A stretch of 64,000 nt of DNA from positions 21,459,389 through 21,523,388 of the forward strand of contig OZ029916.1 of the NCBI GenBank assembly GCA_964023275.1. The letters are read 5' to 3'. The notes under the pieces were generated by a model. That model did no database searches. It was not told the origin of the DNA and saw only the letters and a list, made by a program, of their open reading frames with translations. Made by a program: the position numbers and the translations under genes. Below, piece after piece: positions 38,412 through 64,000 of the stretch (position 1 is the stretch's first letter; each line of letters starts with the position of its first letter). The stretch is from Norana najaformis. Its lineage: Eukaryota; Annelida; Clitellata; Crassiclitellata; Hormogastridae.

Positions 38412-38898
38412 TTGGTAGTTTGAATCCAGTACTTATGTTCTGATGTGCTTAACAACTGGTAGTTTGAATCCAGTACTTATGTTCTGATGTGCTTAACAAC
38501 TGGTAGTTTGAATCCAGTACTTATGTTCTGATGTGCTTAACAACTGGTAGTTTGAATCCAGTACTTATGTTCTGATGTGCTTAACAACTGGTAGTTTGAA
38601 TCCAGTACTTATGTACTGATGTGCTTAACAACTGGTAGTTTGAATCCAGTACTTATGTTCTGATGTGCTTAACAACTGGTAGTTTGAATCCAGTACTTAT
38701 GTTCTGATGTGCTTAACAACTGGTAGTTTGAATCCAGTACTTATGTTCTGATGTGCTTAACAACTGGTAGTTTGAATCCAGTACTTATGTTCTGATGTGC
38801 TTAACAACTGGTAGTTTGAATCCAGTACTTATGTTCTGATGTGCTTAACAACTGGTAGTTTGAATCCAGTACTTATGTTCTGATGTGCTTAACAACTG
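38412..38898. repeat. 44-bp minisatellite, 11 copies, nearly identical
   Basis: The unit begins aactggtagtttgaatccag and ends gatgtgcttaac, starting every 44 bp from 38414 through 38854. The fifth unit has one substitution (gtactgatg). There are no spacers. Confidence 0.97.
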
Positions 38899-43900: not shown

Positions 43901-45618
43901 TTTCTGTCTGCTTTTGTTCTTACCCCTATCTTTGGTTGTCTTTAGTGGATTGGCGTCATCTTGTTTTTCAATGACTGTAGTTTACAGCAGTTTGCAAATT
44001 GTCCACTGGCACAAGGGAATGTTAATGACCTTTTTTCTAGACATACATTGAAATTGCAGATTACTGCAATACTTATTTAAATATTATGCTAATACTTAAA
44101 CCTCTTGTGAAATGTGATAAGATGCTTGAATTCGAGGCAGTAAAGTGTTTAAAGTGTTTATGTATCACATTTTCTGCTCAAGTATATCACTGGTGTCAAA
44201 GCCGACCTCAACAGCCTGGCCATTGCGAACCTAATTTGATATAGTGCCGGTGATTAAACTGGTCTCTTGGGCTCAGATTTTGTGTGGTGTTGAGAAATTT
44301 AGGAGGTTTACATTACATGACATCACATTATGAGAACCTCTCCGTAGTGCTACTGTTTCACATTATCTTAGTGTTCCGTTGAATTATTGTGATCATTTGT
44401 AATCAGGTGGTGATTAGGAGGTAGGAAGCCTGAGCAACATGAAAATCAAATCACATCTTCTTGATGGCTAGATGACATTTGAACCTCTGATAAAAAGGTA
44501 GCTTAGCGTAGCGTCGTATAAATGTTCTCGACAAGAGATGTAGTTTGACTGAGGCATGTCTCATGTGGTCTGCATTGCCCATTTTATGCCATTCATTAAG
44601 TTTTGTTTTGGGCTTAATGTAACCGTTGCACTGAAGGTATTGACTGCAGTTTGACTCGTCCCCTGATGGTGAGGCAGATAGTTCCCTGGGTGGTCACTGA
44701 ATGCTACTGGCACAGTCCAAAACCGAAGTGACATTTATAGGGTAATATTACTGAACTCATCGCTTTGGCTCCTAACTGGATCATGCTGTTGCACGGTGCG
44801 GCTAATGGTTTCCATGGTGACTGCATCTATACTGTGTGGGTCATTAGTGACGAATTTGTACTCGGCTCACTTAGCACAGTTCTTCGAGACCAATCGACTT
44901 TGGCTGTCGCTTGTGGTTTCAGAGCAAACGCGCTGTGCCATTCGGTATCACTGCTCAGGCTTCTTTTGTGAAGTCAATAAAGAAAGAGGCAGCGGGAAAA
45001 GACGAAAACAGATGAAGTAATGGAGAAAGATTTGGAGAGGCAGAGAGATGGAGATATGGAGTTTTCCATGCCTTGTTGTGGATGTTTTCGCAGCATGGCT
45101 GTAGAATGCATTATCCTGAATGGCAGCAAATTATGATCTGTTGTCGGCAACAACTTCCAATGAAACCCTTTACAAGCATCAACACTGCTGGTTGTTTCTG
45201 GGTTGTTAGAAGACTGAAATGTTACGTTATGTTAAGTAATCAGACAGTTGTGGTAACGTAATTTCAGAGTCTCACAAAAACCATATGTACAGTGAGATTA
45301 AATCACTGAGGCTACATTTTTGAGATTAGCTAAGTATTCATGTTTTTCTGAACTAATTATGGCTTCATGTGAATAGTTCTTTGATTCAATAACCGAGTGT
45401 GTGTAGATGAGGTAAAAATCTGTCTGGTGAAACAGTTGTTTTTATTCAAATTGCATGAGGGAAGATCAAGAGGAAAATTTTCATTAGCTGTCAATTCTTT
45501 TTTGAGAAAGTGCAAAATTACTGGTGGGGTTCTATCCTAACTACCATTGTTGTGAATGACCTCACTTATGACTTTATGCATTTCAGCTTAAGACAATTTT
45601 GTGTGGTTTATTTTGCAG
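40911..45618. other. Probable first intron or 5' flank of the plexin gene
   Basis: Contains a cluster of catatggg words at 41258-41400, a truncated R3 repeat, CTGC tetranucleotides near 42270-42370 and a CpG-retaining block at 42410-42930. No coding exon is visible. Intron status depends on the unproven first exon. Confidence 0.35.
41431..41510 (+). repeat. Dispersed repeat family R3, copy 3 (truncated)
   Basis: tgtaaatgtacacggtttta, atagcgactgtatggcctt and atgaatttattgggtgagat. Only the left half of the family is kept. Confidence 0.65.
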
Positions 45619-45668
45619 ACATTTTGTTCACTTGAAAAGATGATAAGTTGACGTTTGCATCCTAAAGA
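45619..45668 (+). other. 5' UTR part of plexin exon (after acceptor)
   Basis: A pyrimidine-rich tract ending in ttttgcag gives a likely acceptor just before 45619. An in-frame TAA at 45663-45665 lies two codons upstream of the ATG, so translation cannot begin further upstream in this exon. This implies at least one non-coding exon upstream, separated by an intron of unknown length. Confidence 0.6.
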
Positions 45669-46826
45669 ATGTGGTGTAACTGTGTGTTTCCCTGTATCCT
45701 GGTTAGTCTGCTGCTACCAGAGTCCTTTGTTGGAAAACTATTGGAGTTTCCACATCCAAACCATTCCAGTCTTGTATTAAACCATCTTCTGCTTGACCAC
45801 AGGACAGGCAGTGTTTATGTGGGGGCAGTCAACAAGCTTTACCAGTTGACAGGAGAACTTGAGGTGGTGGAAGAAGTAACAACTGGACCTCGTCTCGACC
45901 ATACCCGATGTACAACAGCATTTGGCGAAGCCTCTTGCGGCGATGGTGGTACTGTTTGGTACAATGCTGTTGAGACCAACAATGCCAACAAAGTGCTTGT
46001 ACTCGATTACAGGAACAATCAGCTCATAACCTGTGGGACCATATTTCAGGGCACCTGCCAAGCTAGACCAGTGGGCAACCTGTCTTTCACTATAGAGCCA
46101 GAGGGTCGTGGTAACACAGACTACTTTATTGCTGCCAACAGTATCAACCAGTCAACCATAGCATTCATTGGACCGGGTCCAGATGATCAGAATGTTCTCT
46201 ATGTTGCCAGTACTTATACTGGAACAACTCAGTCGACTGTTAGACAGGCAGTCCCGGCTGTAAGTAGCCGTATTATTACCGGATCCAACTTATTCCGCTT
46301 TACCTACTTTGATGGCCTGACTGGTGGTACTGCCATTCACCTGAGGCGGGAAGCTGTGGAAAAATACCTGATATCATACATTGCCGGATTTACTGCTGAC
46401 AATTTTTCCTACTTCCTCACCAATCAGCCTGAATCCTTCTTGCTGGAAAACAGTGGCACGCCACCGCGTATTTCTGAGAATCATGTCTCAAAGCTCATTC
46501 AAGTGTGCAACAATGACAGGAAGTTTTATTCATATGTGGAAATTCCTCTGCTCTGCAGATCAGCCGAAACCGACTATAATCTCGTTCAGTCCGTTGCGCT
46601 TATTCAGCCGAGCGACAGCAGCACATCCCGCAGTGAAAGAGTTCTTGTTGCTGCATTTGCCAAGAGTGAGGATGGAGACACTTTGTCGCCAGCTAAAAAT
46701 TCAGCTGTCTGCCTATACCGGCTTACTGATATTCGAAAAACGTTTGCAGCCAACATCCAGCGATGCTTTTCTGCAGAGCAGAAGTTGGCAGGAATGCAGC
46801 TTAGCAACCGATTTTGTACCCTGTTG
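45669..46826 (+). CDS. Plexin coding exon 1: signal peptide and most of Sema domain
   Basis: Residues 1-386. The ATG follows an in-frame stop and opens a hydrophobic N-terminus ([13 protein letters not shown]) ending near VG at 22, a plausible signal peptide. The Sema propeller starts with the LNHLLLD and [12 protein letters not shown] strands (about 38-60). It carries the plexin-typical disulfide motif [12 protein letters not shown] (119-130), FIAAN (153-157) and the [11 protein letters not shown] segment (286-296). N-glycosylation sequons are visible at N31, N137, N160 and N245. The exon ends phase 0 at a gtgagt donor, after RFCTLL. One uninterrupted 1.16-kb exon codes most of the propeller, whereas the rest of the ectodomain is in small exons. 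Confidence 0.96.
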
Positions 46827-49800
46827 GTGAGTTCACATTACTGAAAATGCAGAGTAGACATGGGATGATGTTTACTAATCAGAAGATATTCTTGTAGCAA
46901 GGATTGAAGAAAAATCATCCTCTTGGAGATTTCCGGCCATTTTCACCTGTCATTTTTATTTTGATATCGCTAATTCCTCATAATTTTATTTTGCTCTTTT
47001 CACAAGAAATGCTTGAATAATGCGCATATTTGAAAAGTTTTATTCGTGATCAGCTGTAGCAAATACTGATGCAAGTGTGCCGGTGTTAGGCCTACCTGCA
47101 TTATGGTGTCTCCTTTCAGTTCTCTTCTTGTGTTGAAACACTAAGCCACAGCAATTTGACTGGAATGAATTACCACATAGTGTTTTCCATTTGATTGGGT
47201 ATTAACCACCACCTGATACCTTTTATATAATTCTCAACTTGCTTGCCCACCATAATCTGGCTTCTGGTTTCTATCAGAATTCGACCCGGCTTTAAAAACA
47301 GATTATGATTTTGACTGCAATTTTGATTTGAAGCAACCATCAACTGATGCCCTGGGCTTTATGGTAATGGCACTACAGAAGTCGGTAAATTAGTTTAGAT
47401 CAGATTCATAAATGTAAAAATCAAGGGTGAATCAAGACCTTATAATTAGAAGTGAGTAGGTTACAGTGGTTTCTGGGATGTGGTTGTAACACAGGTTAAA
47501 TTAGTCTTTCAAGTGTATGCCCTTTACACACTGCTGAGTCCACCACTGACAGTTGCTTGCTTATGTGGCAACTTTTCAAGAAAAGCTGCTCAGGGGTGCT
47601 GCTAATCTTGCAGCACAAAACGTTATTAAAGCAGAATGCTTTCAGCAGTACTGCAGAAGTCATTCAGTCTGTTTTAGTTAAATTCAGCTGTTTTGCAACA
47701 AAACATTCTTGGTGCTGCAAAGAAAGGCAGTTAGTTTTCTAGGTGTGAAAATTATTCTGATGAACTAGGAGAGCTTGTTTCCTCATCACTAAATTGTTCT
47801 TGATTTAAGAGATGTTTGCTACAGAGAAAAGCACAATGAAGCCATGAAATCGGCTTCTATTTCGCCTGTCTTCATTTGTTGTGTATTCACAGAACTTCAA
47901 CATTACCGAGACTTATTGTGGGGAGGCTGAGCAGAATGGTCCACTTGTTGGAACAGTTCCACTGGAATCTTCTCCAGTTATGACCTTTGACCAACTTCTT
48001 GTGACATCTGTTACTGCAACCTACATAAATCATCATGTCGTCATGTTCCTTGGTTCCTCAGACGGCTATCTTACAAAGGTTTCTGTTGTTCGATTTAGCT
48101 TGATTTAACCTGAAAATTTCGTTAAAAAACCGTAAGCATCTGCTGGGTTCACTTTTGTTCAGCACCGCTTAGGGTAAACTGTTGATTGTTTGTGCCTGTT
48201 TCATGGACCACTTTTTAAAATAAACTTCGCAGAGTCAGGAACAAAATGGTTCTGGACAAATCGGTTCCATCGAACAGTTGAGAAAATGAATCCAGCGATC
48301 CCAGCTCTGATGCTTTCAATGTGGATGCCAGCTGATTCTGTTATCAGCCTTCAGCCTTACACTGTTTGGTTGTTGTGCCACGATAAATTCCTACTGCATT
48401 AAATAGCATATTTTTATGGCTAGATCTGTAATTTAATGTAATTGGAAATGTGTAAACGTAAACCTTGATCAATAAAAATGATTTAGAATGGCAGCACTGT
48501 GCCAGGTCAGTGTCATTTGCATGTACTAGTGGCATCTGTACGGAACCAATGGACATTTACTGTATTGCCTGCACTTCTCAGTTATCTCTCACTTTCTGCA
48601 GTGTGCATGAAGCTATGGGGCAAACTAAAAATAAACCCTATGATTTCTTATTGTTTGCTAACACGTTGTATCGTGTAACTTATTAAAATGAAACTTGTAG
48701 GTGGCACTGCAGTCAGAAATGAAGTATCACTTAGTGGATAAAATTCTCATTGATCCGGATTCTGCCATCCACCGAGACCTTTCTTTTGACCCAAGTGGTT
48801 CTTTCCTGTATTCTTTGACAAAAAACAAGGTTTGAGAAGCCACCTTGAATAACTCTGATTCTCTTTATTGGTTTTGAAAGAAGTTCGCCTCACTGACAGT
48901 TTTGTGCAAATACTATTTTCGTCACCATTAATTAATAATAATATTAACTAATAATCTTACAAGTGTATTACTTATGAATGTGTAATATTAACGCAGATTT
49001 TGCAGCAAATGCTAAATTTAGTGAGGTAAGGTAGTATTTTGCATAAAAAGTATCATTTATTTGACAGTGACTGAGTCTTGGTCAGTTTTACAAAGTCTGA
49101 CTAGAGATGGATAGCAGAACAGCAGCCTTAGTTTAGCCTGCCTTAATTTGCCTTTATTTGCCTGTCTGTATTTTTCTCTTCTAGGTTGTGAGAGTGCCAG
49201 TGTCCAACTGTGAGGTATATTCTACGTGTGAATCATGCCGGTCACTGGGAGATCCCTACTGTGGATGGTGTTCTCTTGAGAGACGGTAAGCAGGATTTGC
49301 TCTTCAGTTCTGTCGTGATTTGCTTTCCTTGCAGGAAATTCTAAGTTATTTGCTCTCCTCGTAGTCCACCTGCTGCCTGTTTGCTTGTCTGAACTTTGTC
49401 TATCTCTGTTTTCCTCTATTGATCTGTCTCTGTCTCTTTCTCTCTCTCTATGTCTGTCTCTCTGTGTCTTTGTCTGTCTCATCTCTCTCTGTCTCTGTCT
49501 CTCTGTGTCTCTCTCTGTCTCTGTCTCTCTCTCTCTGTCTCTCTCTCTGTGTCTTTGTCTCTCTCGTCTCTCTGTCTCTGTCTCTCTGTGTCTCTCTCTG
49601 TCTCTGTCTCTCTGTCTCTCTCGCTCTCTCTGTCTCTCTCTCTCTAGATCGCTGTTTGCTTCCATGTCTGGCTGATGGGGTTGAGGTCTGGCTTTCTGTT
49701 TCAATGTCTCCTTGCTTTTCATTGTGTTGCAGCTGTGTTTATGCTTGATCATTTGTACATTACCTCTGAAGTTCTAGTGGCGTACCTGGACAATTGTATA

Positions 49801-50959
49801 GTGCATTTTAAGAACCTTTCAAAAAGCATCAGTGGTTTGACAGAAAGAGGTTTTTCACAGAATTTTTTGAGCAAGTAATCTACACCACATGAGTCAGCAC
49901 TGAGCAACATGTCAAGGGAGAATTATTCCCTGAAGGAAGAATTATTCCCTGCCAGGGGAAAGCAGAAAACCCAACGTATTCCATTGCTGTGTTGAAACAA
50001 GGAAAGACTGCCAATTGCAGGAGCTTTATTGCCATTTACCACATACTTCAGTAAAATTTTAGTTTAACATATTCTGAGTATATGTGTTTGTAAGGCCAAA
50101 TTTATATATGTATGTATATGTATATATCCATGTCGTGCTATGGTTTAGATGTGCACATTGTATATAGTTCAATTAGGTTGGCACTGTTACTGGTTACTAG
50201 TGTATTTGTCTTTCTTCTCTGGGTTCAGATCCTGGTGTGTGTCACATAAAATTAACAATTCACTGTCATGCCATTCAGCCCTTAAAGTCTGTACAGTGGA
50301 AGTCTTCAACAACTGATGTCACAGAAAGTGACCTACTTTGGATCCCTCTGTCTTCATTGTCCACATTTGTCTAAATTTGGTATTACACTCCCTCTCCCCA
50401 TCCCTTTCCCATCCCTTTGCTGGCGTCCACACTCCAGAGAAGTACTAAGGCCTAGGTTAGGCTACCCTGTCTGCAATGGGATGGGGTACTCTGATACTGC
50501 TCCATCCAGCAAAGGGACTCCTTGATTAGCTCCAACTCATTGTATACTGTCTGCTGTCTGATGGAAGGAGGTGCTTACGGCACAGGCTGTACTGAAATAA
50601 CTATACACCAGATTTAGATGCTGGTGTCCCCAGTGTCCCACATTTCCCCATCCACATTTGTCTGCATTTGCGTGACCCCTACCTCCCCTCTTTGCGGAAG
50701 TCCCTAATAGATGATCCCATGTTGGATTGCTATCGTTGTGTTTTTGTTTCAGCAGAGAGTCCTTCAACCTCTAGGTTGATGCCTACATATACATACACAC
50801 ATGCATTTATGCATAAACAAAGAATGATGCTTCTGTTGATGGTTATTTATACACCATTAAGGTGTGATATGTGCAGGAATATGTTCAGAATAAATAAATA
50901 CTATATACAGTATGTTCACATACTATATAATACATAGTATTTATGTTTGTATGTATATG

Positions 50960-51044
<85 letters not shown>

Positions 51045-54000
51045 ATATATATAGTGTATGTATCCACCCTCCTAGAACAGTCTTCATTTGTATTCACACA
51101 CTGTTTCATTTGACTCTGTGCAGTAATCATTTTCAAAGTGTGTTAAAGGTACTTGTTTAGATCAGATAGATGGCATTGTGTGCAGAGCTTTTGCGAGGTA
51201 CTTAAAAGTGATATATTAAGTGTCTTCATACTTACGTACGTACAACTGGTATATATGTTTATATTTACATCCAGTCTGCACAGGTGTAAGGTGTTGCATT
51301 TTGTAGGTGTACGTCTAAGGCATCATGTGCTGACTCACACCTGGACAAGCGATGGCTGGCGTACGACTCCTGGGATTGTATTGGAGTTCCATCACAGTTT
51401 GTCAATCCAACCAAAATTGGGCTCCGTAGAAGTGTTCAGGTCTGACGGATGATATATGTCTTGGAGCCTTAGAATGGACTTACATAGTTCTGATTCCACT
51501 TTGGGATCCGTAGAAGTGTTCAGGTCTGACGGATGATATATGTCTTGGAGCCTTAGAATGGACTTACATAGTTCTGATTCCACTTTGGGATCCGTAGAAG
51601 TGTTCAGGTCTGACGGATGATATATGTCTTGCAGCCTTAGAATGGACTTACATAGTTCTGATTCCACTTTGGGATCCGTAGAAGTGTTCAGGTCTGACGG
51701 ATGATATATGTCTTGCAGCCTTAGAATGGACTTACATAGTTCTGATTCCACTTTGGGATCCGTAGAAGTGTTCAGGTCTGACGGATGATATATGTCTTGG
51801 AGCCTTAGAATGGACTTACGTAGTTCTGATTCCACTTTAACACTATTGTGTTTTCTTACTGATGTCACCTGCAGCTGCTACTGCTGATTATGGTGTTGAC
51901 ATTGATAATGAATATGTTAATGAGTTGATAATTTTGGTAATTTTATCAGTATTTGTTCCTGTATACCGTTTTTGCCATGCCAGAGTTAGTTGTCAGCATC
52001 CAAACGAGTCTTGGCAAATAGTAAAAAGAGTCGCTCATGTGGTTGATTTTTATTGCCCTTTGTTGTGGGCTTTCGTCATCGAGTCACTGGAATGGCACAG
52101 GTCAAAGAAGGCGAATGGAATGCTGTGGCAGTTTGGTGCTTCCCACTGAGGCCTATTTGGCACTTCTGTCAGAGTCAGAAAGCTGCGTTCATAAAACCGC
52201 CTTCTCAGTTCATTCTTATCTGTGTCTGCTTCATTACACTTCTTGGCTGTTGCTGCAGTCAGGCATTTTAATTTATCTTCGGCGCTTCATCTCTCTCGTC
52301 CTCCTGTAAGCAAATAAAGTTGTCTTCCCAATCAATTCTGTCTGGGACAAATCTAGTTGAAGGGATTTGTCCATCTGCAATGATCTGTCTGGATTTTTGC
52401 TGCAGGATTAAAAGAAATCACCACTAGCTGATTGCTCATCGGCCACAGCTATTTTTATGTCTGAGTTGATGGAATTTCATATTTTTCTATTTGCCATTTC
52501 TTCAGTTGATAGCATTCGTGACGTTTGTTTCATTGTTTAAAAGTAAAATAGCTCATGTCCCAAATGGAATGAAGCACGTGTTCATATTGCTTAGATTCTG
52601 AACTGGTAATATAGAAAATCTTATAGTGCCCCTGAATAGTTTGCTTTGTAAAAGACACTATATAAATTGACAAATGCATACATGCAATAATAAGTCCTGA
52701 TACCAGCTGATCTAATGACTTCTGTGACTATGGTATCTAATGCATCAGACATCAGTCGATGGCTCAGCAAGACCAGCCGCAAATTTGGTCAAAATTCAAA
52801 GTCAGGCCATTAGGGCAAAGAGACAGCAGATTGTGAAGATCCTCTGTTCACAAAGTTTCCTGTTTTATATAACAGTTTTATTTTCAGAATTTATAAGCAA
52901 TATGGTAGGCACTGAATTTTCTTCCATGAAGCTACTGTAGAGTTGTGAAATCTTATCTTTGATTGCAGGTGACCATAGGTATAAAGTCGTTACCACCTCT
53001 GCAGTCATTGGATAAATACCTTTGCTTCTTTGGATCTGCCAACGTATCTTCTGTTGGAATTGTGGCGCCGAATGAAGTCCGTTGTCAAACTCCACAGCCA
53101 GCACTGAGAAATACTATAACGTTACCTGGAAGAGCAGGTGCATAGGCAATCTGCTATAGTTTCTTTACAGAATTTTGACAAATTTGGGTTTGTTACCTTT
53201 GCGTTTCTTAAGTTTGTTACCTAAGCGTTTCTTAAGTTTGTTACCTTTGTGTTTCTTAAGTTTATTACCTTTGCGTTTCTTAAGTTTGTTACCTTTGCTT
53301 TTCTTAAGTTTGTTACCTTTGCATTTCTTAAGTTTATTACCTTTGCATTTCTTAAGTTTGTTACCTTTGCATTTCTTAAGTTTGTTACCTTTGCATTTCT
53401 TAAGTTTGTTACCTTTGCATTTCTTAAGTTTGTTACCTTTGCATTTCTTAAGTTTGTTACCTTTGCGTTTCTTAAGTGCTCAGAATGCTAATTTTTAAAA
53501 CCAGCTCATTCACAAGTACAGAACTGTTGCTTTCGTGATTGTTGAAATCAGAGTAATGAAATAATCCGGTTCGTGACTCTGTTTTTAGAGGCTAATAACA
53601 AATGCTTCTGCCAATTTTGTGAATTTTAAACATCCATTGTCTTTTTAGTTTTTGAATTCTTGATCAGACTGATGTCTTTAGTTGATATTCCAATATTTCT
53701 GAATCTCTCTTACCGGCTCATTTTGACATTAACACTTAGAATCACTAAGCTGGCCATTTTGCGTACTGGTTAACTTTTTTATGATCACATTTTTTAAACT
53801 AGATCATGTCAACGTGACATTGTCGATATATTCAACTGCGACCAACATGTCATTTGTGGAAACAGTTATAACCTTCTACAATTGCAGCCAGCACATTTCG
53901 TATGTAAATGATTTTGTTTTATTTAAATAACTGCCTATAAAACTGGAAAAAAAATGAAATTATGCTGATGGAACAGGCCAGCCACTTAAAGGGTGTTGTT

Positions 54001-57000
54001 AAGAATATTTAGATCAGTTGCTTACCTCCGTTGAGTCACTACTATGAAAGCAAGGCATGTTAAACTAGTAACAATAATTAAAATTAAGTGCTTAACTGGT
54101 GATTATATTTTTATAGCAATCAGTAAAATATCAGTTGTTTTATTTGACAAACGGGTGCAGATGAGCAGCCAACAACAAAACTACTGGTTGATTGATTGAT
54201 TTGTTGACTGTTTCATTCATTGATTGTCTTATTGATTAATTCATTGATTGTCTCACTGATGATTTTCATTAATTTTCTTATTGATAGATTCATTGCTTGT
54301 CTCAATGATTATCTCATTAACATCGATTGTCGCATTGGTTTCTTCGTTGATTGTCTCATTGGTTTCTTCGTTGATTGTCTCATTGGTTTCTTCGTTGATT
54401 GTCTCATTGGTTTCTTCGTTGATTGTCTCATTGATTGCACCATTAATGTTGATGCTTTTACATTGATTTTTATTTATGCCTTGATGGTTGGACGAATTTA
54501 ATGATCATTTGAAAAGCTTACCGAGTGCTAGACTGGTTAACTGGACGGTCTGAGAGTCTGATGAATTTATTGGTTGATTGGTCTGCTGATTGATTGGTAG
54601 GTGTACCCTTTGTACAAGTGCTGTGTGGGGATGTCACTGGTGCATCCAGTCCAACATCTGTAGTCAGTCAGATGAATTGACCAAGTGTACTGCAAGCACC
54701 GTCAATAGACTAGAGGTAGGCAGACATAACATTCATTCTCAGTTCCACCATTTATCCCTAACAGAGAATGTAATGTAAGTATGACAATTTATATAGCACC
54801 ATAGGTAGCAAGCTGCTTCTGTGGTGCTTTGTAATGTCAGTTGTCAGTCCAAGTACTATGAGTGTGCTAAGAGTTAGATGACAGAGTTGCAATTGTTTTT
54901 TGAAAACGTGAACACTTTTGGCCTCCTGAAAAGATAAATGTAAATGTACGCTTTTTTCTGTAACGACCGTATGGCCTTGACCCTGCTCATTTTCGATGAA
55001 TTAATCATGTGAGATCCTTCACCACTGCTGTCCATTTGAATGGGTGCCACGCTATTTAAGGTCCCTGTGTAGGCCTACGGAATGGAACGGAATGTGGATT
55101 CCAGAAGGCTGTTCCAAACAAGTGGGTCAGCGACCAAACGACCTTATAACCTTTTTTGTCTTAGTTGTTGGTAGCCTGCCTCCAGCAGTACGTTTTAATT
55201 ATTCGTTTGATTTGACCATTTATTCTGACAACTTGTTGTGTGTTCAAAATCATTAAACCAAATCTGGAAGATGAATGACCTGAGATTGAGCAAAAGCCAG
55301 AGGAAACTAACTGGGCTTGAATTTTGATGCTGATATCACTGCTGCAGCTGCTAGCGATGGCCATAAAGATGATGAAATGATGATGGCAGTGATAAGATAA
55401 AAATTATTTTTAATGATTCGTGTATTTATGTTCCAGTATGCTTATCTATTTAGAATAGTCACAAACTGAAAACAGAAATTTGAGGAACAGTTATTCTCTT
55501 GAAGGGATATTCTTTACCTTGTGGTTGCTAGAATTTTGTTGCTGTCTTTTTCTCTTTTACAGATGTGTCCGCAACTGAGACATGAAGCTGGGGTTTCCAT
55601 GGTTATTGCAGCCAACGTTCCAATGGAAATACGAATACCAGCTATGCACTTACCTGTTCCAATTGTAGGAATTTAATTTTTTTGTATCTCTTGTTTTTTA
55701 TTTAATAGTTATTCAACAGTGTCCTGAGTTATTGCAGAACTGTGATACAGTGATATCATGTGCAAGGTGGACCAATAAATTAGTCAAGTAGCTTGGGAAG
55801 AATTTTAGTATGCAAAATTTTCAGACTGTAATTCCAACCTATAATTACTGTAATTTTTTAAACTAGTACTTTTCAGTAACCTTTATTAGTTGCCATTGAT
55901 CAGGCTTTCAATCATCAACTTGACCTGTTCATAGTGTAGTTTTAACTCGAGTAAAGAAACACAGTCTTTGATTTCTAAATTATAATTAAAACGAACAGTT
56001 CAGTCTCAGCAGTGATTGAATCATCTCAGTTTCTAAATGCAAAAATCTGTCTATGACATTTGTAACTCAGTCTTTCAACGTAGCTCATGCCAGACCAATT
56101 CTTCACGCTCTCTTCCACTGTATTGCCTCTGCTTATATAGGCCATTGGTTGACAGGACAGCAGACCTGTACAAACTGGTTTAGACCAGCTTCTCGATATT
56201 GAGTATTCGAGGGTTTCCAGTAATCCGCCCACTCATCACACCATAGGCCGCATGAACACCCACATGATAAAATACGCTTCGGCAATAATTACTGCTGATG
56301 TCTGTCCACCTACTTGTAGGGCTTTGCCAGCCAGTCACACCAATCCCACAATGCATCTGATGCACGGCAACCGTAAGAACGTTAATAGCACTTACAAAAA
56401 CAAATTAGTAATCAGATGACTCATGGAAATTTCCTACAGCATAATTCCACCTGTGACCAGGATCAAACAACAATTTAAAACTTGCTGATTAAGCAGTGCA
56501 ATATTATGTTCACAGTATTTGTTTTATTTGTTTGTTTCTTATATTCATGTAATACCACTCTCCAATGCACAGCATCAGTTGATGGTGCTAAACATTTTAT
56601 GATTGAGAACAGTGACCATATGAGGAGAGCCTTGAACCTGCTTTGCATTACAAGTTGAATGCTCAATCAGGTGGATGCCTTGTGAGATGTATTCATTCTA
56701 TAAACAATTACTTTGCTGTTAAGGCACAGGTTTATGCTCAAATGACAAAAGATACTGCTCTGAAAATCTATTGCCATTAGTAAAATTTATCCACTGCGTT
56801 TATTTCATAGATGGCTGAAAAACTTCTGTATGTAGCAAACACTTCTGTCTGTAGCAAACACTTCTGTCTGTAGCAGTTTGTCAAAAAATGTAACTCATTT
56901 TAAGTAAAACTTTGTCTTTTTTGGGTGTTAGAAAGCTGTACTTCAGTCTTAGGATTTCTCTACTGAGTTGAAATATTTTTAGAATCCTCTTCGTGGCTAC

Positions 57001-60000
57001 CAGTGCATCATACATCTCACTGCTCCACCTGTAGTGGTTTCTGCAAAGCGCAGTTCATCTGAAGAAGTCATCTGTGAAGCTTTTGAGGTTAAAAGTTGTA
57101 TAATATGGTCTGAGAACCGTATTTCTATCGATAAGTGCAATTTAACTGACGGGACCAGTCTTTTTCCACAAGTTGTACAACTTGACAAGGAATTCTCAGT
57201 TTTACTTTATCATTCAGGAGTCAGATGTAGGCGTATTGGTGGAGAGTGAGACAGTAAGAGAATTCGGATGTGCATTGTGGAAATCTCTGTTCTACAGTTA
57301 AATTTAAATAAAGAATTATCATCTAAACATTATGAATGTATCTGTAAGGTTATACTGAATTACATATGTTGCACTGACAATGTTTTGCATTTAAACATGT
57401 TAAATGTAAATATGCAAAGTTACACTAAATGTGCTGAGACATGATATTAGCTGTATCTTGACCATCTAAAGGAGTTGGAGCGTTGCAACCTGAATCAGGT
57501 CTCGTCTGTGGACTTACTTCTGTTGAGTGATTGCTCAGGTTTTGCTTGGACGATAAACTGGTTCTGTATTTTTCATCCTTTGCAGTACAGCTATGAACCC
57601 CAGGAACCAGAGAAGGTGGCAAGTGTTGAGGTCACTTGGAATAAAGATTTCTACATTGATGACTTCTATGGTGTCTCAGGTAGCTTACCTCCTTCTTTTC
57701 TTGAGAAAAATGTCTTGGTGTTTATACAGAAATGTTCATAGAAATTGCCATCATTCTGTTTCATTATATGTAAAGGCTAAGGTTTCTTGTTTTCTAAATT
57801 AAGTTAGGTCCTAAAATACTATTTTACAGACAGTTGTTTTCTAATCTGGATTATTATGTCACTGTTGCTATTAGTGTATAACACTGTTCTGACAGTGACG
57901 ATATACAAGTGCGAGGTGTTGGCGACAGACTGTAGTACCTGCCTCAGTCTACAGGAAGTGACACATTCTGCCAAGTACAGCTGTCAGTGGTGCAACCATA
58001 GATGTCAGCACAATTCCACATGTGACCAGGATCGAACAACAAGCTGTCCACTGCCGAACATCCATGATGTGAGTTCCTTCTTGCACCTGTTTGTCTGGGA
58101 ATTTCTATAGCGCATTTTAAAACTTCTCAGGAGTGTTTCTTGCTAGCCTAGTTGGTGTTAGAGTTTTATCAGTGTTCGGCAGTGGACAGCTTGTTGTTAG
58201 ATCCTGGTCATAGATTGAATTGTGCTGACATCTATGGTTGCACCACTGAGAGTTGTACTTGGCAATTCAACTTTGTCTTTATACGATGAATAACACTTTT
58301 TTTTGCTGAAAAAGGTCTTCACTGGTGGACGGATGGGTATGGGTGAGTGTATAGGTGGCCGGTTAGCATACAGCTGCATATATATACATCAGGTAATGCT
58401 TGTAATGCATAATGCTTAACGTGCATGTATATATATATATTTATGCTATGGAATTTCAGGTGTATCCACTGAGTGGTCCTTTGGAGGGTGGAACCTTGCT
58501 GACCATCACTGGCACAAATCTAGGAAGAAGCCTTGACCACATTCGTCATTCCATCTTCATTGCTGGCATTCCATGTGAAGTCATACCCAGCGAATACGTT
58601 GTCTCACGTCGGTCAGTTGACACACAGCGACTTCTTGTCAGGAAAAGTTACTTAATAATGAGGGCATCAGTAATTAAGAAAACCTATCAGAAGTTAATTA
58701 GGTAGTCATAAATGTAACTTTATGCTGCAATAAGATGCAACACTGTTCTTGTTCTAAAGAAACTATATGGGACATGTGTGTACATCCAGATGCATACATA
58801 CCTGGTACATACATACATGCTAGTATACGTACAAAGGCATACATATATACATATGTATTTACATATATGCATACATATTGTATGCAACATACTAGATTTT
58901 GCTGCTAATGAAGAAATGATCCTCGGTTAAATTTTCCCTATTTACCAAATGTTTTTTTTTTTAATTATTGCAATCTAGTAATTATACTTTGTGCCAAGAC
59001 ATTTATTATGTAAGAGTCATGTTAAACAGAGGCATGAAATTCTTTTAAGTTGCACAATTTTCTATGTGTCTGATAGGCAAGCAGAGTGTTTTGGAAAGGT
59101 TAGATATTAGTTTATGATAGGTTTTATTAGTTTACACAGCACCATGTCAGTGTCATAATATAAGTAGTTTCTGCAACAGAAATTAAGTTAATTCCAGTAG
59201 GTTGATCATAAGATCGAGGGAAGTTGCGGAACCCCTAGGAATTTAATTTATTTCTAGCCAATAGTCTGTTGTAGAGAGATAACTCTTGCCTTTGTTCAGA
59301 ATTGTTTGTAAGACGGGTCCGGTCGGCAGACGCAAACAGGCAAGAATTGTTGTAACGATTGGTGATGCAACTGTTTCCTGGGAAACGGAATTTAAGTATC
59401 AGGTAACTAATCAGCCGGGACACAAATTTCCGAGTTTTTAGAGCAATTTAAATCATGGTGATGATGATAATAATGATGACAATAGATTGCAGTGGTGGTG
59501 GGGTCAAGTGGTTGCAGCCAAGGTATCTGGTGAAGATGCAGAAGAAATGCTGTACAGAACTTACTAGTAAATGATAATAATATTAATTATATTCTGTAGT
59601 TGGATACCCTGCCCACTGCCAGCTCTGTTTGTTTCCTGTCACATTCTTCTTCTTCAGTGTTCTGCTCTTAGGCAGGTCCAAGAATCCAACGACACCACTC
59701 TTCTCTGTTCTCTGTCCTTTTCTTAACTTCTTTTTAGCCCCATCTTCTTTCTTTATCCTTCTTCCAGTCCAACAGCATATTCCTTGGTCTTCCTGGAACC
59801 TTCTTTGCCTCAATTCTTCCTTCAATCACTGCCCTTTGGAGAGAATTTCCTCGTAGTATGTTACAAGTCCAGTTCTTTTGTCTCCTCATTGTGTTGACCA
59901 ATGTCCTTTCTTCCTGTACCACATGCAATACCTCCTTATTGTTTTATAATTCTTCCAGCTGATTTTGGCCAGTCTTCTTCATATCCACATTTCAAATGCC

Positions 60001-63000
60001 TTGAGTTTCTCAGTTCCTCTCACTGTGTGCAGAGACTTAAACATCTGGACAAAAATCAAAGCTAATCATAAAAATGTGAATTCAGAAATTTAAAATTCTG
60101 CTCTATATTTGTTCCTGCTAGGATAGCTGCTTGAAGAAAGGATCTTGTAATTTTAGATGTTCTTATTTATGTTCTCTTGCGGTATGCAAAGATATAAACA
60201 TCTAGACAGGAATCGTGGCTAAATGTAAAAAATATTAAATGAAATTTTGAAATTTTAATCTGCAGTCGTCTCTGCTTTAATGGCTGCTTAAATGGAGGGC
60301 CATATGATTTAGGTGTTTTATTTTGACTGGAGCTGTTGGGATAGCTTATTTAAATTTGAGATTGAAATTCTTCAACATAAGGGAATGAAGCCTAAAAATT
60401 ATCAGTTAACCAGTTCAAAGATTCGATCTAACAGTGGATATTTAAGATATGGCTGGATGTCATTTGTGTTTGAGAAACCTGATGTGGTCAGTGTGTCACC
60501 AAGGCTGGGCCCAGTGGCAGGTGGAACCACAATTACTTTTCACGGATATGACCTTGACACTGGTGGATTCATTCAGATTCTCTTTGACTTCATTCCTTGT
60601 AAGCTGGACAGGTCAGTGACGGCTTTACTCCTATTCTTCTCTTGATCTTCCACGGAAAATCAGTCTGTACTATGACTTATGTTAATTGACTTCTTTGTTT
60701 ATATTAATTAACTTCTTTGTGTTTATTCATTGTTTTATTGCTGGTCTTGCTTGCTTGAATAACTTCTTTGTTTATTGAAAGTAAATGTAAATGTACATGT
60801 TTTGTATTCTTGCTGGTTTGTGTTGTTCATCTTCGTTATCTGATGCATTCTGTCTCGCATTTCTATGTCCATGTTCTTATGCTCATGCATCATAATTCGT
60901 TTTTATTATCGTTTGTATTATCACTATCATCATGGACACTGTGGTTGCTCTTTGGCAGGCGCTTCGAACAAATGAATGGATGCAAGTCAGGATGGTTTGT
61001 TTCTTTCTTCCTGTATCAGATAAACGAATGATTGATTGAGATTATGAAAGTAAATTCGAGTGATGGATTGACCGGGCGAACAAGAGTAAGCCAGAGTGTA
61101 ACTGATTTATTGGTTGATTGAAGCAAAGATTGTTCAACTTAAGAAGGAGATATTTGCTGTAGTGAAGCACCGTCTCCTCAGTTGCTCTGCCACGTTCAGT
61201 GACTGATGGCCGTTTTGTTGTTTCATTTTCTCCAGATTTCCATTCTGGATTCAGATGTGCTTAGTCAGATTCCTATTTCAGGGACTTACGATGCTGTCTT
61301 TTATTTTTTTAAAGGCAGCGGATTAACAGCACAATGTTTGTCTGTACCACTGCACCCGTTCTCAATGCCATGGTACTACCAATTGCTGTCATCTTTGATG
61401 AAGTCACTAGACGAATTGACCAGACATTTGAATATACAGAAAATCCAACAATTTTCGACATCAACCCACTCATGTCATTTGCCAGGCAGGTCCTTTGCTG
61501 TGAATAAATGCAATTCCTAAATGTTTAGGTCTCTGCACTGAATGCATTCTTGACATTCACAGATGTATTCAGTGGTAATATTTTAAAGCACACTGATGTC
61601 GTATATTGGTATATTGGTATAAGAAAAAAGCAGTTTCTAGGCAACATGAAGGCAGGTTGATAAAATGAGAATGTACCTTTCATCTAGTGCAAATTAAGAG
61701 TTGATTAAGTTACAGTTTACAAGACTTTCCTATTATTTCAGTAGTTAAAATTCTTTCATTAACTTGAGAGTTTTCAGCTCTTTATTTAACAGGTCTGGTA
61801 TTATTAATGTATTTATGTATAGTTTGTAAATGGTATTAGCAGTATATTTTATCTTTACTGACTTATTTTTGGCTTAAAATTCTTTAGTGGTGGACGAATC
61901 ATCACCATTACCGGTACGTCATTTGGTTCCATTGGACAGGCTTTCTTTCATCTCTCCAGTGGATTTTCTACTTTCAACTCCTCCGTAAGCATATAAATAG
62001 AGTATGTCCTGTGACATGAAGACGTTGTTTTAATTAAATTATAAGCATAATTAATTGGCTTACCTGCTAGATTTGGTTATTCAATTGTTTAAATGTCATT
62101 GTTTTCTTTAATTTTGAGTTTATGCTAACCCATGAGTTGAATTGAGAGAGTAGCCTAATCGAATTGAAGTATGTTTGCATCAACATGGACTTCAGGTGTT
62201 ATGCTTGCCTGTGGTTGCTCAAAACATTAGTTGCTCAAAACATTAGTTGCTCAAAACATTAATTGCTCCAAACTTTAGTTACTCAAAACATTAGTTGCTC
62301 AAAATATGTTGATAATTTTTCTTCTAATAATGCAATAGGTGATAACTTGTATGGACAAACTGTTCAACCGGTTGTGACCATTAATTCTCTATTGATGCAT
62401 TTTTAATGAACTGATTGAATTTATGATTTAAAAAAGCAATGTGGAGGTGAAATTCGTTGTTAAAAATATACCTTGCACTGGTATATTATGTGCTGGTGGT
62501 GCTATTAAAGTTGTTTAATAGAATTAAGTAAAGTGTTTGCTTGTATGTGTTTTCATTTGGCCACACATGTGAAGGTGGCTTTCCTTTTAGCCATACCTAA
62601 GGTTTGGTTCATAACATGTCATGTGGAAATAATATCTCATTGGTTGGAATGCGGTTGTAACTTTTGCTGGCATATCCTTCAATCCAAAGAAGTTGGATGT
62701 GAGGAACATAAGCTACAGGGGCACTTATTAAATTTCTTTTTATCATATGTAATCACCTGTGTCTGCATAAATTGGATGTTTTTAGTGTTCTTTTGTCAAC
62801 AACTCCACCCTTACCTGCCCCTCTCCGAAAATAAGAAACGAAACTCTGTCGGCCAACCATCCAAGGCTTGATGTTTTCCAAGAGTTTGGTGACTGTGAAG
62901 TGTGGTTTACGATGGATGGTGTGACATCTGTCCACAACCTGTCCCTTCATTTTCCTGATGTAAAGTCAACCTTTACAATCGTTCCTGATCCGGAGTTCAT

Positions 63001-63445
63001 ACTTTTTGATGATGGCCAGAGAGTCTACAGGGGAGAGGCACTGATTCTTGGGGTAAGAGAACAAGGCATGCCTCCTGAAGTCTGTTGATGATATAGACAA
63101 TTACCTAACCTTTCTGTACCTTACCTTATTATCTCACCTTACATTACCTTACCTTACTTTACCTTATCTTAATTTCCTTGTCTTATTCACATTCTGTCAT
63201 TTAAAATTGAATATTTGTACATTTCTGAAACTATTTAAAATAAATCTGTTTTGGTGTTTTCAATATTTTAGGGTGAGAATTTAAATCTTGCCTGCACTCC
63301 TTCTGAAGTTATGGTATTTATTGGTGAAGAGTTGTGCCGAGTAAACTCACTTGATGCCAACACCCTTTACTGTACACCCCCAGTTAACCAGCCACCAGCC
63401 TTAGACTCCTCTGGCTTGAGGAGTGGAGGTCGACCAATTGTTAAG
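45669..63445 (+). CDS. Plexin-B-type semaphorin receptor, extracellular part (19 exons, 3' end beyond window)
   Basis: Plexins are single-pass cell-surface receptors for semaphorins. Ligand binds the Sema propeller outside the cell and the cytoplasmic GAP acts on small GTPases in axon guidance and cell migration. Nineteen exons join in one reading frame (1,189 codons). In order: signal peptide (about 1-22), Sema (about 30-495), PSI1 (about 500-537), IPT1 (538-625), PSI2 (about 626-664), IPT2 (665-765), PSI3 (about 766-822), IPT3 (823-907), IPT4 (908-995), IPT5 (about 996-1105) and the start of IPT6. Diagnostic strings include [31 protein letters not shown] and [19 protein letters not shown]1, PSI2 (WGCHWC), the IPT5 start (SFASGGR) and IPT6 (GENLNL, LYCTPP) resemble vertebrate B plexins, with some likeness to D, more than A plexins. 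That is from memory, not an alignment. The transmembrane and GAP regions are missing because the window ends. Exon joins are inferred from phase, splice sites and homology. Confidence 0.95.
47330..47412 (+). repeat. SINE 3' body fragment in plexin intron 1
   Basis: caaccatcaactgatgccct, then tatggtaatggcactacaga and a ttagtttagatcaga tail. Similar bodies lie at 9812-9875 and 14230-14305. Confidence 0.55.
47893..48078 (+). CDS. Plexin coding exon 2: Sema domain
   Basis: Residues 387-448, phase 0 at both ends. The acceptor is gtgtattcacag and the donor gtttct. Encodes [20 protein letters not shown] and [14 protein letters not shown], matching the plexin 'yCG ... FlGt.dG.L.KV' strand pair. The preceding intron is 1,066 bp. 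Confidence 0.95.
48701..48829 (+). CDS. Plexin coding exon 3: Sema domain, last blade
   Basis: Residues 449-491, phase 0 at both ends. The acceptor is aaacttgtag and the donor gtttga. Encodes [12 protein letters not shown] and the strand [17 protein letters not shown], which in plexins leads straight into the first PSI domain. Confidence 0.95.
49185..49285 (+). CDS. Plexin coding exon 4: end of Sema and first half of PSI1
   Basis: Residues 492 to about 525, with two bases left over (donor gtaagc). Encodes [18 protein letters not shown] followed by [12 protein letters not shown]. The spacing of the five cysteines and the DPYCGWC core are the plexin PSI signature. A 2,698-bp intron follows, full of CT repeats, (TA)n and an 84-bp minisatellite. 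Confidence 0.96.
49421..49645. repeat. CT-rich microsatellite, plexin intron 4
   Basis: Long (tctctgtctc)n tract. It generates spurious Ser/Leu or Arg/Glu-rich frames on both strands. Confidence 0.95.
50165..50292 (+). mobile_element. tRNA-like SINE fragment in plexin intron 4
   Basis: ggcactgttactggttacta followed at B-box distance by gggttcagatcctggtgtg, then a short body with cactgtcatgccattcagcc. It does not fold as a normal tRNA. Confidence 0.4.
50953..51054. repeat. (TA)n microsatellite, plexin intron 4
   Basis: About 100 bp of alternating TA with taatataa interruptions. Confidence 0.97.
51149..51245 (+). repeat. Dispersed repeat family R6, copy 2, in plexin intron 4
   Basis: gtacttgtttagatcagata, gagcttttgcgaggtactta and a decayed atatatta tail, as in 24248-24345. 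Confidence 0.5.
51423..51842. repeat. 84-bp minisatellite, five copies, plexin intron 4
   Basis: The period is exactly 84 bp, starting tccgtagaagtgttcaggtc. Units differ at one or two sites (cttggagcc against cttgcagcc). The minus strand stays open throughout because 84 is a multiple of three. Confidence 0.95.
51984..52020 (+). CDS. Plexin coding exon 5: probable 37-nt microexon, rest of PSI1
   Basis: A pyrimidine tract ending in tgccatgccag precedes one base that completes the split Arg codon of exon 4, then [12 protein letters not shown], then a gtaaaa donor. It enters and leaves in exactly the phases that exons 4 and 6 require. The Trp fits the W of plexin PSI domains, and the join to exon 6 gives SWQI then [11 protein letters not shown], as expected. 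It supplies only one cysteine where B plexins usually have about three, so a different or additional small exon in the large intron remains possible. Confidence 0.55.
52969..53137 (+). CDS. Plexin coding exon 6: IPT1, first part
   Basis: Begins phase 0 after gattgcag and ends with one base left over before gtgcat. Encodes [23 protein letters not shown] and [12 protein letters not shown]. This matches the B-plexin pattern 'LPPL ... C.FG ... V.C..P' of the first IPT domain. Confidence 0.92.
53189..53476. repeat. 24-bp minisatellite, 12 copies, plexin intron 6
   Basis: The unit gtttgttacctttgcatttc plus ttaa, with g/a and minor variants, runs for exactly 288 bp and leaves all plus-strand frames open by periodicity. 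Confidence 0.95.
53803..53899 (+). CDS. Plexin coding exon 7: end of IPT1
   Basis: Completes the split codon of exon 6 to read [14 protein letters not shown], then [13 protein letters not shown]. The 'F.F/YNC' motif closes IPT1 and opens PSI2 in plexins. The acceptor is tttaaactag and the donor gtatgt, with two bases left over. Confidence 0.93.
54325..54435. repeat. 24-bp minisatellite, four and a half copies, plexin intron 7
   Basis: The unit gattgtctcattggtttctt plus cgtt repeats at 54325, 54349, 54373 and 54397, inside a longer gattgatt-rich tract starting about 54190. Confidence 0.9.
54601..54715 (+). CDS. Plexin coding exon 8: PSI2
   Basis: Completes a split Ser codon and encodes [20 protein letters not shown] followed by SQSDELTKC. 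The C..C, W.C.WC and C....C spacing is that of plexin PSI2. The WGCHWC core is close to the vertebrate plexin-B1 form. The acceptor is gattggtag and the donor gtaggc, ending in phase 0. Confidence 0.95.
54769..54865 (+). repeat. Dispersed repeat family R5, copy 2, in plexin intron 8
   Basis: gacaatttatatagcaccat, tagcaagctgcttctg and ctttgtaatgtcagt, directly upstream of an R3 copy. Confidence 0.55.
54937..55078 (+). repeat. Dispersed repeat family R3, copy 4, in plexin intron 8
   Basis: aatgtaaatgtacgc, taacgaccgtatggccttga, gagatccttcaccactgct and cacgctatttaaggtccc, in the family order. Confidence 0.7.
55563..55664 (+). CDS. Plexin coding exon 9: start of IPT2
   Basis: 34 codons, phase 0 at both ends. 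The acceptor is tctcttttacag and the donor gtagga. Encodes [15 protein letters not shown] and [13 protein letters not shown]. The CPQL and downstream 'I.L.....LP' pattern is the A strand of plexin IPT2. Confidence 0.9.
56437..56473 (+). pseudogene. 37-nt direct fragment of the PSI3 exon in intron 9
   Basis: Matches exon 12 positions 58006-58042 with three substitutions and reads [12 protein letters not shown] in the same frame as the real exon ([12 protein letters not shown]). Flanking sequence does not match and a stop follows shortly. Part of the match resembles a tRNA B-box in reverse orientation, so descent from a repeat is an alternative. The length and frame agreement favour an exon-derived fragment. 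Confidence 0.6.
56565..56690 (-). mobile_element. SINE-like copy in plexin intron 9, reverse orientation
   Basis: On the minus strand, gcaggttcaaggctctcc is followed after about 40 bases by agcaccatcaactgatgc. This is the head-to-body layout of the 20.2-kb SINE, more diverged. Confidence 0.45.
56822..56876. repeat. Short tandem repeat of 18-19 bp, three copies, plexin intron 9
   Basis: acttctgtctgtagcaaac is repeated almost exactly. Confidence 0.85.
56983..57087 (+). CDS. Plexin coding exon 10: IPT2, middle
   Basis: 35 codons, phase 0 at both ends. The acceptor is atatttttag; the donor gttaaa is weaker than usual but is needed for the frame. Encodes [12 protein letters not shown] and [12 protein letters not shown], matching the plexin 'GY.C......V.C' IPT2 pattern. 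Confidence 0.88.
57586..57679 (+). CDS. Plexin coding exon 11: IPT2, last strands
   Basis: Starts phase 0 after tcctttgcag and leaves one base before gtagct. Encodes [20 protein letters not shown] then [11 protein letters not shown]. In plexins this segment reads 'YSYE ... V.V.W.g.f.iD' before the YKC of PSI3. Confidence 0.92.
57896..58068 (+). CDS. Plexin coding exon 12: PSI3
   Basis: Begins after gttctgacag, completes a Val codon and encodes [31 protein letters not shown] and [10 protein letters not shown]. The cysteine spacing and WC core identify the third PSI domain. The donor is gtgagt, phase 0. The 3' half (57970-58060) is duplicated in inverted orientation inside the next intron (58173-58263), and a 37-nt piece also occurs at 56437-56473. 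Confidence 0.95.
58173..58263 (-). pseudogene. Inverted partial copy of the plexin PSI3 exon inside intron 12
   Basis: The reverse complement matches exon 12 positions 57970-58060 over 91 bp with no indels and seven substitutions (about 92 percent). Boundaries are sharp on both sides. Read on the minus strand, the copy still has an open frame, but five residues change, including two of the PSI cysteines (Cys to Ser and Cys to Tyr), and only one substitution is silent. It therefore looks like an unconstrained copy. No splice acceptor is evident around it on the minus strand. A 112-nt spacer, containing the exon 12 donor, separates the two arms. Confidence 0.92.
58460..58611 (+). CDS. Plexin coding exon 13: IPT3, first part
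   Basis: Starts phase 0 after gaatttcag and leaves two bases before gtcagt. Encodes [20 protein letters not shown] (the classical IPT/TIG 'P..Gp..GGT..ti.G.nLG' opening), then [17 protein letters not shown]. This is the best-conserved IPT start in the gene. Confidence 0.95.
59300..59402 (+). CDS. Plexin coding exon 14: IPT3, last part
   Basis: Found by phase: one base completes the split Arg codon, then [23 protein letters not shown] and ETEFKYQ follow before gtaact. This fits the plexin pattern 'IVC.tgp ... v.v ... F.YQ' and leads in phase 0 to KPDVVSV of exon 15. The acceptor is ctttgttcag. Confidence 0.9.
59600..60060 (-). mobile_element. LINE 3' ORF remnant in plexin intron 14
   Basis: The minus strand reads KAFEMWI, LAKISW and [14 protein letters not shown]-like pieces, then [20 protein letters not shown] and [20 protein letters not shown]. 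This is the C-terminal tail of a non-LTR retrotransposon ORF2. It is carried antisense within the plexin intron and has frame breaks and stops. Confidence 0.7.
60475..60611 (+). CDS. Plexin coding exon 15: IPT4, first part
   Basis: Encodes [20 protein letters not shown], then [11 protein letters not shown] and FDFIPCKLD. The GP.AGGT and G..L.TGG elements match B-plexin IPT4. I place the acceptor at ttgtgtttgag. The open frame runs further upstream, so the 5' edge is the least certain part. The donor is gtcagt with two bases left over. Confidence 0.88.
61315..61485 (+). CDS. Plexin coding exon 16: IPT4 end and IPT5 start
   Basis: After a strong tract (cttttatttttttaaag), one base completes an Arg codon. 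Then come [12 protein letters not shown] (the 'I.C.T.P' strand), [12 protein letters not shown] and [19 protein letters not shown]. The 'F.Y..nP.i....P..SF.sGG' link to IPT5 is strongly plexin-like. The frame into exon 17 needs the donor at gccag followed by gcaggt, which makes this a GC-AG intron. Confidence 0.9.
61888..61984 (+). CDS. Plexin coding exon 17: IPT5, first strands
   Basis: The first base completes AGT (Ser) with the two bases left from exon 16, giving SFA then [14 protein letters not shown], as in B and D plexins. It continues [16 protein letters not shown] and ends phase 0 at gtaagc. The acceptor is aattctttag. Confidence 0.92.
62214..62308. repeat. 16-bp minisatellite, about six copies, plexin intron 17
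   Basis: The unit gttgctcaaaacatta recurs with a few substitutions (gctccaaacttta, ttactcaaaac). Confidence 0.9.
62786..63052 (+). CDS. Plexin coding exon 18: IPT5 end and IPT6 start
   Basis: 89 codons, phase 0 at both ends. The acceptor is gatgtttttag and the donor gtaaga. Encodes [24 protein letters not shown] and [15 protein letters not shown], ending with EALILG. This matches the plexin 'C.vnsstLtC.sP ... v.f.lD.v ... y.pdP.f' run between IPT5 and IPT6. Confidence 0.94.
63272..63445 (+). CDS. Plexin coding exon 19: IPT6, first part
   Basis: 58 codons, phase 0 at both ends. The acceptor is caatattttag and the donor gttggt. Continues ILG with [36 protein letters not shown] and GRPIVK. The 'GENL.L....EV...IG...C.V..L....LYC.PP' run is close to vertebrate B plexins. 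The next expected strands (V.vGn..y.lG) are not found before 64000, so the next exon lies outside. Confidence 0.93.
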
Positions 63446-64000
63446 GTTGGTATCTTATATTTCTAGTTTCTTCTGTGCACTTAACTGCAAATGTTTAAGA
63501 TTTTGACTGGTTTATTGCAATTCACATTCTTAAATTATTTTTATTACAAGCATTAGTTGGTGCAAAACAGATATTTGGTTAAACATATGAATAATTTGTA
63601 TAATGAAATCTTTTTTATTGTGCATTTTAAGAGGTTTTCAGCCAGCAAGCTTTGTGTTCCTGCCTTGAGTCATTCCACTGACTGTGTTGATCTCCTTGTT
63701 CCTCATTTCAACTGCATTCTGTTCAGCTGCAATTACTTTAAATATACTTGCAGTTCAGGTCAACTGATTGCCTACCTCTGATCATGACAAAAATAAACAC
63801 TGTTCTGGTAAAGAAAGTAGTTATAAGACTCGATTAGATTAGTCCTGTGAGCTGTGTATACAGATATGTACATTATACCTCCGTCATACGTTAGGGACTT
63901 CTGAACTTTAGTTTCTTCGGTCCAAGGCCGTGGTTCTCTCCGGTCAGCTGTCCATGGTTGCCTCACTGTCCCTCGTTTGTGTACTTCTACTTAGCACAGA
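63446..64000 (+). other. Plexin intron 19, open at window end
   Basis: Starts at a gttggt donor. No continuation of the IPT6 strands, transmembrane segment or acceptor followed by plexin-like sequence was found before the edge. Confidence 0.7.

Follow-up and report, generated by a model that had tools for sequence, protein, structure and literature searches.

The window analyzed here, a 64,000-nt stretch of the 608-Mb Norana najaformis genome (17 contigs; C4:21459389-21523388), contains a plexin A gene, identified by its large Sema exon (Plexin A 6fkm, E = 1.2e-59). The exon of interest, called exon 12 in the initial annotation, encodes the PSI3 domain and occupies positions 57896-58068 of the forward strand. 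It is 173 nt long, enters in phase 1 and leaves in phase 0, and is bounded by an AG acceptor at 57894-57895 (CAG) and a GTGAGT donor at 58069. The reading frame is continuous from the exon ending at 57679, through the PSI3 exon, to the exon starting at 58460. Alone, the PSI3 exon finds nothing significant in PDB or Pfam (PSI_Plexin-B, E = 0.05, is below the cut-off). With the adjoining exons attached, it aligns collinearly to plexin A2 across PSI3 and the TIG domain after it (E = 7.9e-19), and to the PDB chains of plexin A1 and A4 as well. A search of viral contigs for a plexin relative gave four pattern matches, none of them confirmed.

Two partial copies of the PSI3 exon

The inverted repeat pairs an exonic source arm (57970-58060, forward strand), which ends 8 nt before the donor, with an inverted copy, I (58173-58263, reverse strand), in the following 391-nt intron (58069-58459). 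The arms are reverse complements over 91 nt, with 84 of 91 positions alike, seven differences and no indels. The 112-nt loop between them (58061-58172, forward strand) comprises the last 8 exon bases, the splice donor and the start of the intron. This is the arrangement reported in the initial annotation, and its coordinates, differences, lack of indels and spacing are all confirmed. The differences fall at exon positions 57980, 57983, 58017, 58019, 58020, 58022, and 58034, four of them clustered within 6 nt. Two of these changes have cost I cysteines; the exon retains them, and they line up with cysteines of PDB plexin A chains, so the annotated loss of two PSI cysteines from the copy stands as well. 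A repeat finder gives the arms one further base each (92 nt), making this the longest pair among the 25 listed of 149. In an ungapped inverted-match scan (+1/-2, partners within 600 nt), the PSI3 exon scores 71. The best of 105 other 173-nt segments, taken at 600-nt steps, reaches 46 and overlaps copy I itself; the next scores 36 (an AT repeat), and the median is 10.

The loop bears on the left boundary of I. Its stretch 58088-58168 (forward strand) has a single relative elsewhere in the genome, C12:6873511-6873591 (75% alike), and this resemblance breaks off 4 nt short of I, which may mark the left junction of the copy. On the right, the only listed relative (C5, 80%) corresponds to 58375-58446 and starts 111 nt beyond I, and the bases adjoining I have no match in the DNA search of the genome. 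The sequence to the right of I scores 39 in alignment with the C12 relative, and shuffled sequences average 36.8.

Self-comparison of the window located a third copy, T, upstream of the PSI3 exon and absent from the initial annotation. T (56437-56473, forward strand) reproduces 37 bp of the exon (58006-58042) in direct orientation with three differences. No plexin exon is assigned at T, which appears to be intronic; a weak TIG_2 domain match lies downstream near 57000 (E = 0.0034, below the cut-off). T sits inside an older interspersed repeat (56157-56515, forward strand), where it replaces 12-15 bp. A search with 56390-56520 returned at least 47 matches, the window itself included (best 40 of 64 candidates scored). 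Among the matches listed, those on the left end at 56435-56441, mostly at 56436, and those on the right begin at 56472-56478, apart from two, which start at 56464 and 56465; the interval 56442-56463 is left uncovered by all 46 non-self matches. All eight fetched relatives with both flanks (L013 and L027-L033) carry 12-15 nt of ordinary repeat at this point and no exon sequence, which demonstrates the pre-insertion, empty site. Because these eight are relatives of an already existing repeat and lack the exon piece, the comparison shows that T was copied from exon to intron, into the repeat, and establishes this direction independently of any argument from coding constraint. T thus bears the signature of a deletion plus a templated insertion, with 12-15 bp lost, and offers the strongest clue to how the exon copies arose.

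At position 58020, both I and T carry C and the exon carries A. The simplest account, from this one site, is that the exon itself changed after copying, silently (ACC to ACA). A 10-base match, TTTAAAACTT, also links the loop at 58116 to the sequence right of T. We considered and rejected this as a trace of chained template jumps or of a shared repeat; the T flank belongs to the host repeat, and when 295,297 bases were searched with a profile built from eight members of that repeat, the loop was not among the hits. A tandem exon duplication or alternative exon was likewise rejected, T being a 37-bp fragment only and I lying on the wrong strand.

Copy number and other inverted repeats

A 31-base degenerate pattern fitting all three variants, allowed up to three mismatches, matches three places in 608 Mb: the exon, I, and T, all within 2 kb. 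As a control, the same pattern read backwards matches once genome-wide. When the 91-nt arm served as a DNA query, only the exon and I were listed and T was missed; that search is not exhaustive, and absence of a match in it does not show rarity. Further copies, shorter or more diverged than I and T, could exist. Miniature inverted-repeat transposons are present in many copies, and the exon copies are found at one locus only. The pattern search upholds the earlier proposal that I derives from the exon rather than from a genome-wide repeat.

Inverted pairs are ordinary in the Norana najaformis genome. Our sample comprised twenty 10-kb stretches of contig C4 (196,681 non-N bases, no exon annotation), from which we dropped low-complexity rows and rows more than 2 kb apart. 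Of the 17 rows kept, six are short self-palindromes of 35-66 nt, and 11 are separated inverted pairs less than 2 kb apart, the best at 86% identity. No coding-exon pair at 92% identity occurs in this small, single-contig sample. Relatives were sought for 12 arms, one from each of nine background pairs and three other pairs of the window. Seven have relatives in another of the loci compared and two more (L015 and window 29115) have relatives genome-wide, which places at least nine of the 12 in repeats. The arms of L020, window 32035, and window 8045 have no relative among the loci compared, and those three pairs may be single-copy.

How common such pairs are bears on the idea that I and T stem from a transposable element or dispersed repeat that overlaps the exon by chance. 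The frequency of nearby inverted repeats and the failure of the arm search to list T lend this idea some plausibility, yet the three-place result of the pattern search, and the relatives of most other arms set against none for the exon arm, leave it hardly credible. An assembly or library artefact is scarcely more attractive. Fold-back chimeras produce inverted copies, and such a chimera would account for the orientation of I. It would not readily account for the seven differences with their cluster, the 112-nt loop, the unrelated flanks, or a direct third copy elsewhere, and judged on these features a palindromic assembly artefact is very unlikely.

Several of the other inverted pairs deserve a brief description. 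The element at L015:6322-6598, with 71-nt arms 135 nt apart, resembles a miniature inverted-repeat transposon and has at least 131 matches genome-wide (best 40 of 64 candidates scored). At window 29115-30396, an interrupted ORF region (29314-30133) with no Pfam match above the cut-off lies between inverted arms of 71 nt (86%). The adjoining repeat is high-copy (best 40 of 524 candidates scored), the arm matches two other places, and the whole looks like a decayed transposon. The pair at window 32035-32375 has arms of about 91 nt (75%) separated by 159 nt.

Predicted folding of the exon-intron hairpin

As RNA, the arms of the PSI3 repeat can form 84 Watson-Crick and two G-U pairs with five mismatches (86 of 91 positions pairable), including unbroken runs of 33 and 26. 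Region 57899-58460 is predicted to fold at -250 kcal/mol, compared with -161 ± 6.6 kcal/mol for 100 shuffles (z = -13.6), and the mean probability of in-register pairing is 0.93. The long exon-intron duplex proposed in the initial annotation, with the donor inside its loop, is therefore supported as a prediction. The accompanying suggestion that the duplex masks the donor fares poorly: the donor has a predicted unpaired probability of 0.33 when the copy is intact, and shuffling the intron arm (30 controls) gives 0.28 ± 0.05, so its accessibility is like that of the controls. Values for the upstream acceptor are 0.25 against 0.26, and for the downstream acceptor 0.35 against 0.27. It is the exon arm that is affected, with an unpaired probability of 0.07 versus 0.32; the hairpin is predicted to sequester exon sequence rather than splice sites. 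Circular RNA is not expected, because no exon is enclosed by the arms. No Rfam family reaches its gathering score in window 44000-64000.

Two functional readings follow from this geometry. The hairpin might lower recognition of the exon, giving partial skipping, a frameshift, and a reduced dose of plexin A. The mostly paired exon arm could hide splicing enhancers, and the available text of PMC2533698 offers a precedent in inverted intronic Alu pairs that can make a constitutive exon alternative. Skipping of the PSI3 exon is computed to shift the frame and reach a stop after 25 codons, so it would mostly amount to loss of function. However, the donor and both acceptors are no less accessible than in the controls, and we regard this reading as unlikely. 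The other possibility, also improbable in our estimate, is that I serves as an editing complementary sequence for ADAR, so that PSI3 is recoded in a fraction of transcripts. Among the 29 exonic adenosines of the arm, 28 face U and 23 would be recoding if edited; eight of the paired recoding adenosines follow A or U and do not precede U. ADAR acts on duplexes of this kind, as far as the consulted part of PMC2533698 describes them. Against this, the pairing shows no excess conservation, although the test is weak, and promiscuous editing, toward which long near-perfect duplexes tend, should harm a disulphide-rich domain.

The conservation test draws on the divergence of the two copies. T is direct and unable to pair with the exon, and thus provides a built-in comparison for the paired copy I. 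The copies differ from the exon at 7 of 91 and 3 of 37 positions, respectively (Fisher p = 1, from few sites and with little power). Over the shared 37 nt alone, I has five differences and T three (p = 0.71, also a weak test). Of the seven changes in I, two keep a G-U pair; 13% would be expected if all substitutions were alike, and the probability of two or more is 0.23. These tests, weak as they are, give no sign that pairing is maintained by selection.

Origin of the copies and related systems

We consider it probable that I and T are two templated-insertion scars of the PSI3 exon and that the hairpin has no selected function. In ancestors of this animal, part of the exon would have been copied at least twice, as the template for short DNA synthesis in the course of error-prone germ-line repair or replication. 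One event would have placed the 91-nt reverse-complement copy in the next intron, through either a fold-back template switch or a templated insertion made during end joining. The other would have left the 37-nt direct copy inside the upstream repeat at the expense of 12-15 bp there, and both copies would then have drifted. In the pre-mRNA, I would pair with the exon; splicing is expected to proceed because the donor lies in the loop, and the hairpin would be tolerated. The support for an origin by templated insertion is good in the case of T, and for I such an origin is likely. The mechanism was presumably template switching or polymerase-theta-like end joining, and the hairpin is probably incidental to it and not an evolved device, with no function for which it would have been selected.

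Two considerations count against this reading. Copying of the same 37 bp twice is poorly explained by independent random events, and templated insertions would not normally be expected to reach 91 nt. I and T may also stem from one complex event or from an RNA template. A more elaborate proposal makes the exon a recurrent donor, by one complex event or through an RNA or cDNA template, and makes I a cis control of editing or splicing that alters neuronal plexin A guidance signalling; we think this doubtful.

The two-scar origin can be compared with known mutational processes. In the gold-standard set of great-ape template switches, copied lengths have a median of 12 and a maximum of 128, as given in the consulted part of Walker et al. 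2021 (PMC7954356), and Monttinen and Loytynoja 2022 (PMC8794818) describe, in the text available, template-switch events that can create RNA hairpins. Copy I resembles these short-range switches in being a local reverse-complement copy with the potential to form an RNA hairpin, and its 91 nt fall within that reported maximum. It differs in that the source is a coding exon and the target the next intron, and in a length far above that median. The accessible part of PMC7407515 treats templated insertions, direct or inverted, as a mark of synthesis-dependent or alternative end joining. The polymerase theta products described there resemble T in combining a small deletion with a nearby insertion in direct orientation, whereas the template of T is 1.5 kb away and no clear microhomology is seen by eye at the junctions. 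As is characteristic of template switches and templated insertions, the copies match nearby unique sequence and not a repeat family. The exon-intron copy is a further example of a known mutation class, restricted to one locus as far as our searches reach.

The arrangement also recalls two kinds of functional RNA duplex. At ADAR recoding sites, an exon pairs with an intronic editing complementary sequence. The pairing predicted here is likewise with the following intron, but the intronic partner duplicates the exon itself and is long and nearly perfect. Hairpin RNAs and young microRNA genes arise by inverted duplication of their target. They share with this locus an inverted coding duplicate on one transcript; here, both arms lie inside the gene and one is an exon. 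Our literature search found no exon-derived inverted intronic copy, which does not prove its absence from print. The exon-derived hairpin is of interest as an example from nature of a coding exon beside which one mutation, if the preferred reading holds, set a nearly perfect 91-nt complement. Whether such a hairpin is edited, harmlessly spliced out, or lowers expression represents an early step in models for the origin of editing sites and hairpin RNAs.

Finally, the window contains three tandem arrays. Two lie within the plexin gene span, at 51417-51838 (84-bp unit, 5 copies, 98%) and 53188-53477 (24-bp unit, 12 copies, 95%), and another at 38413-38898 is composed of 11 copies of a 44-bp unit (99%).
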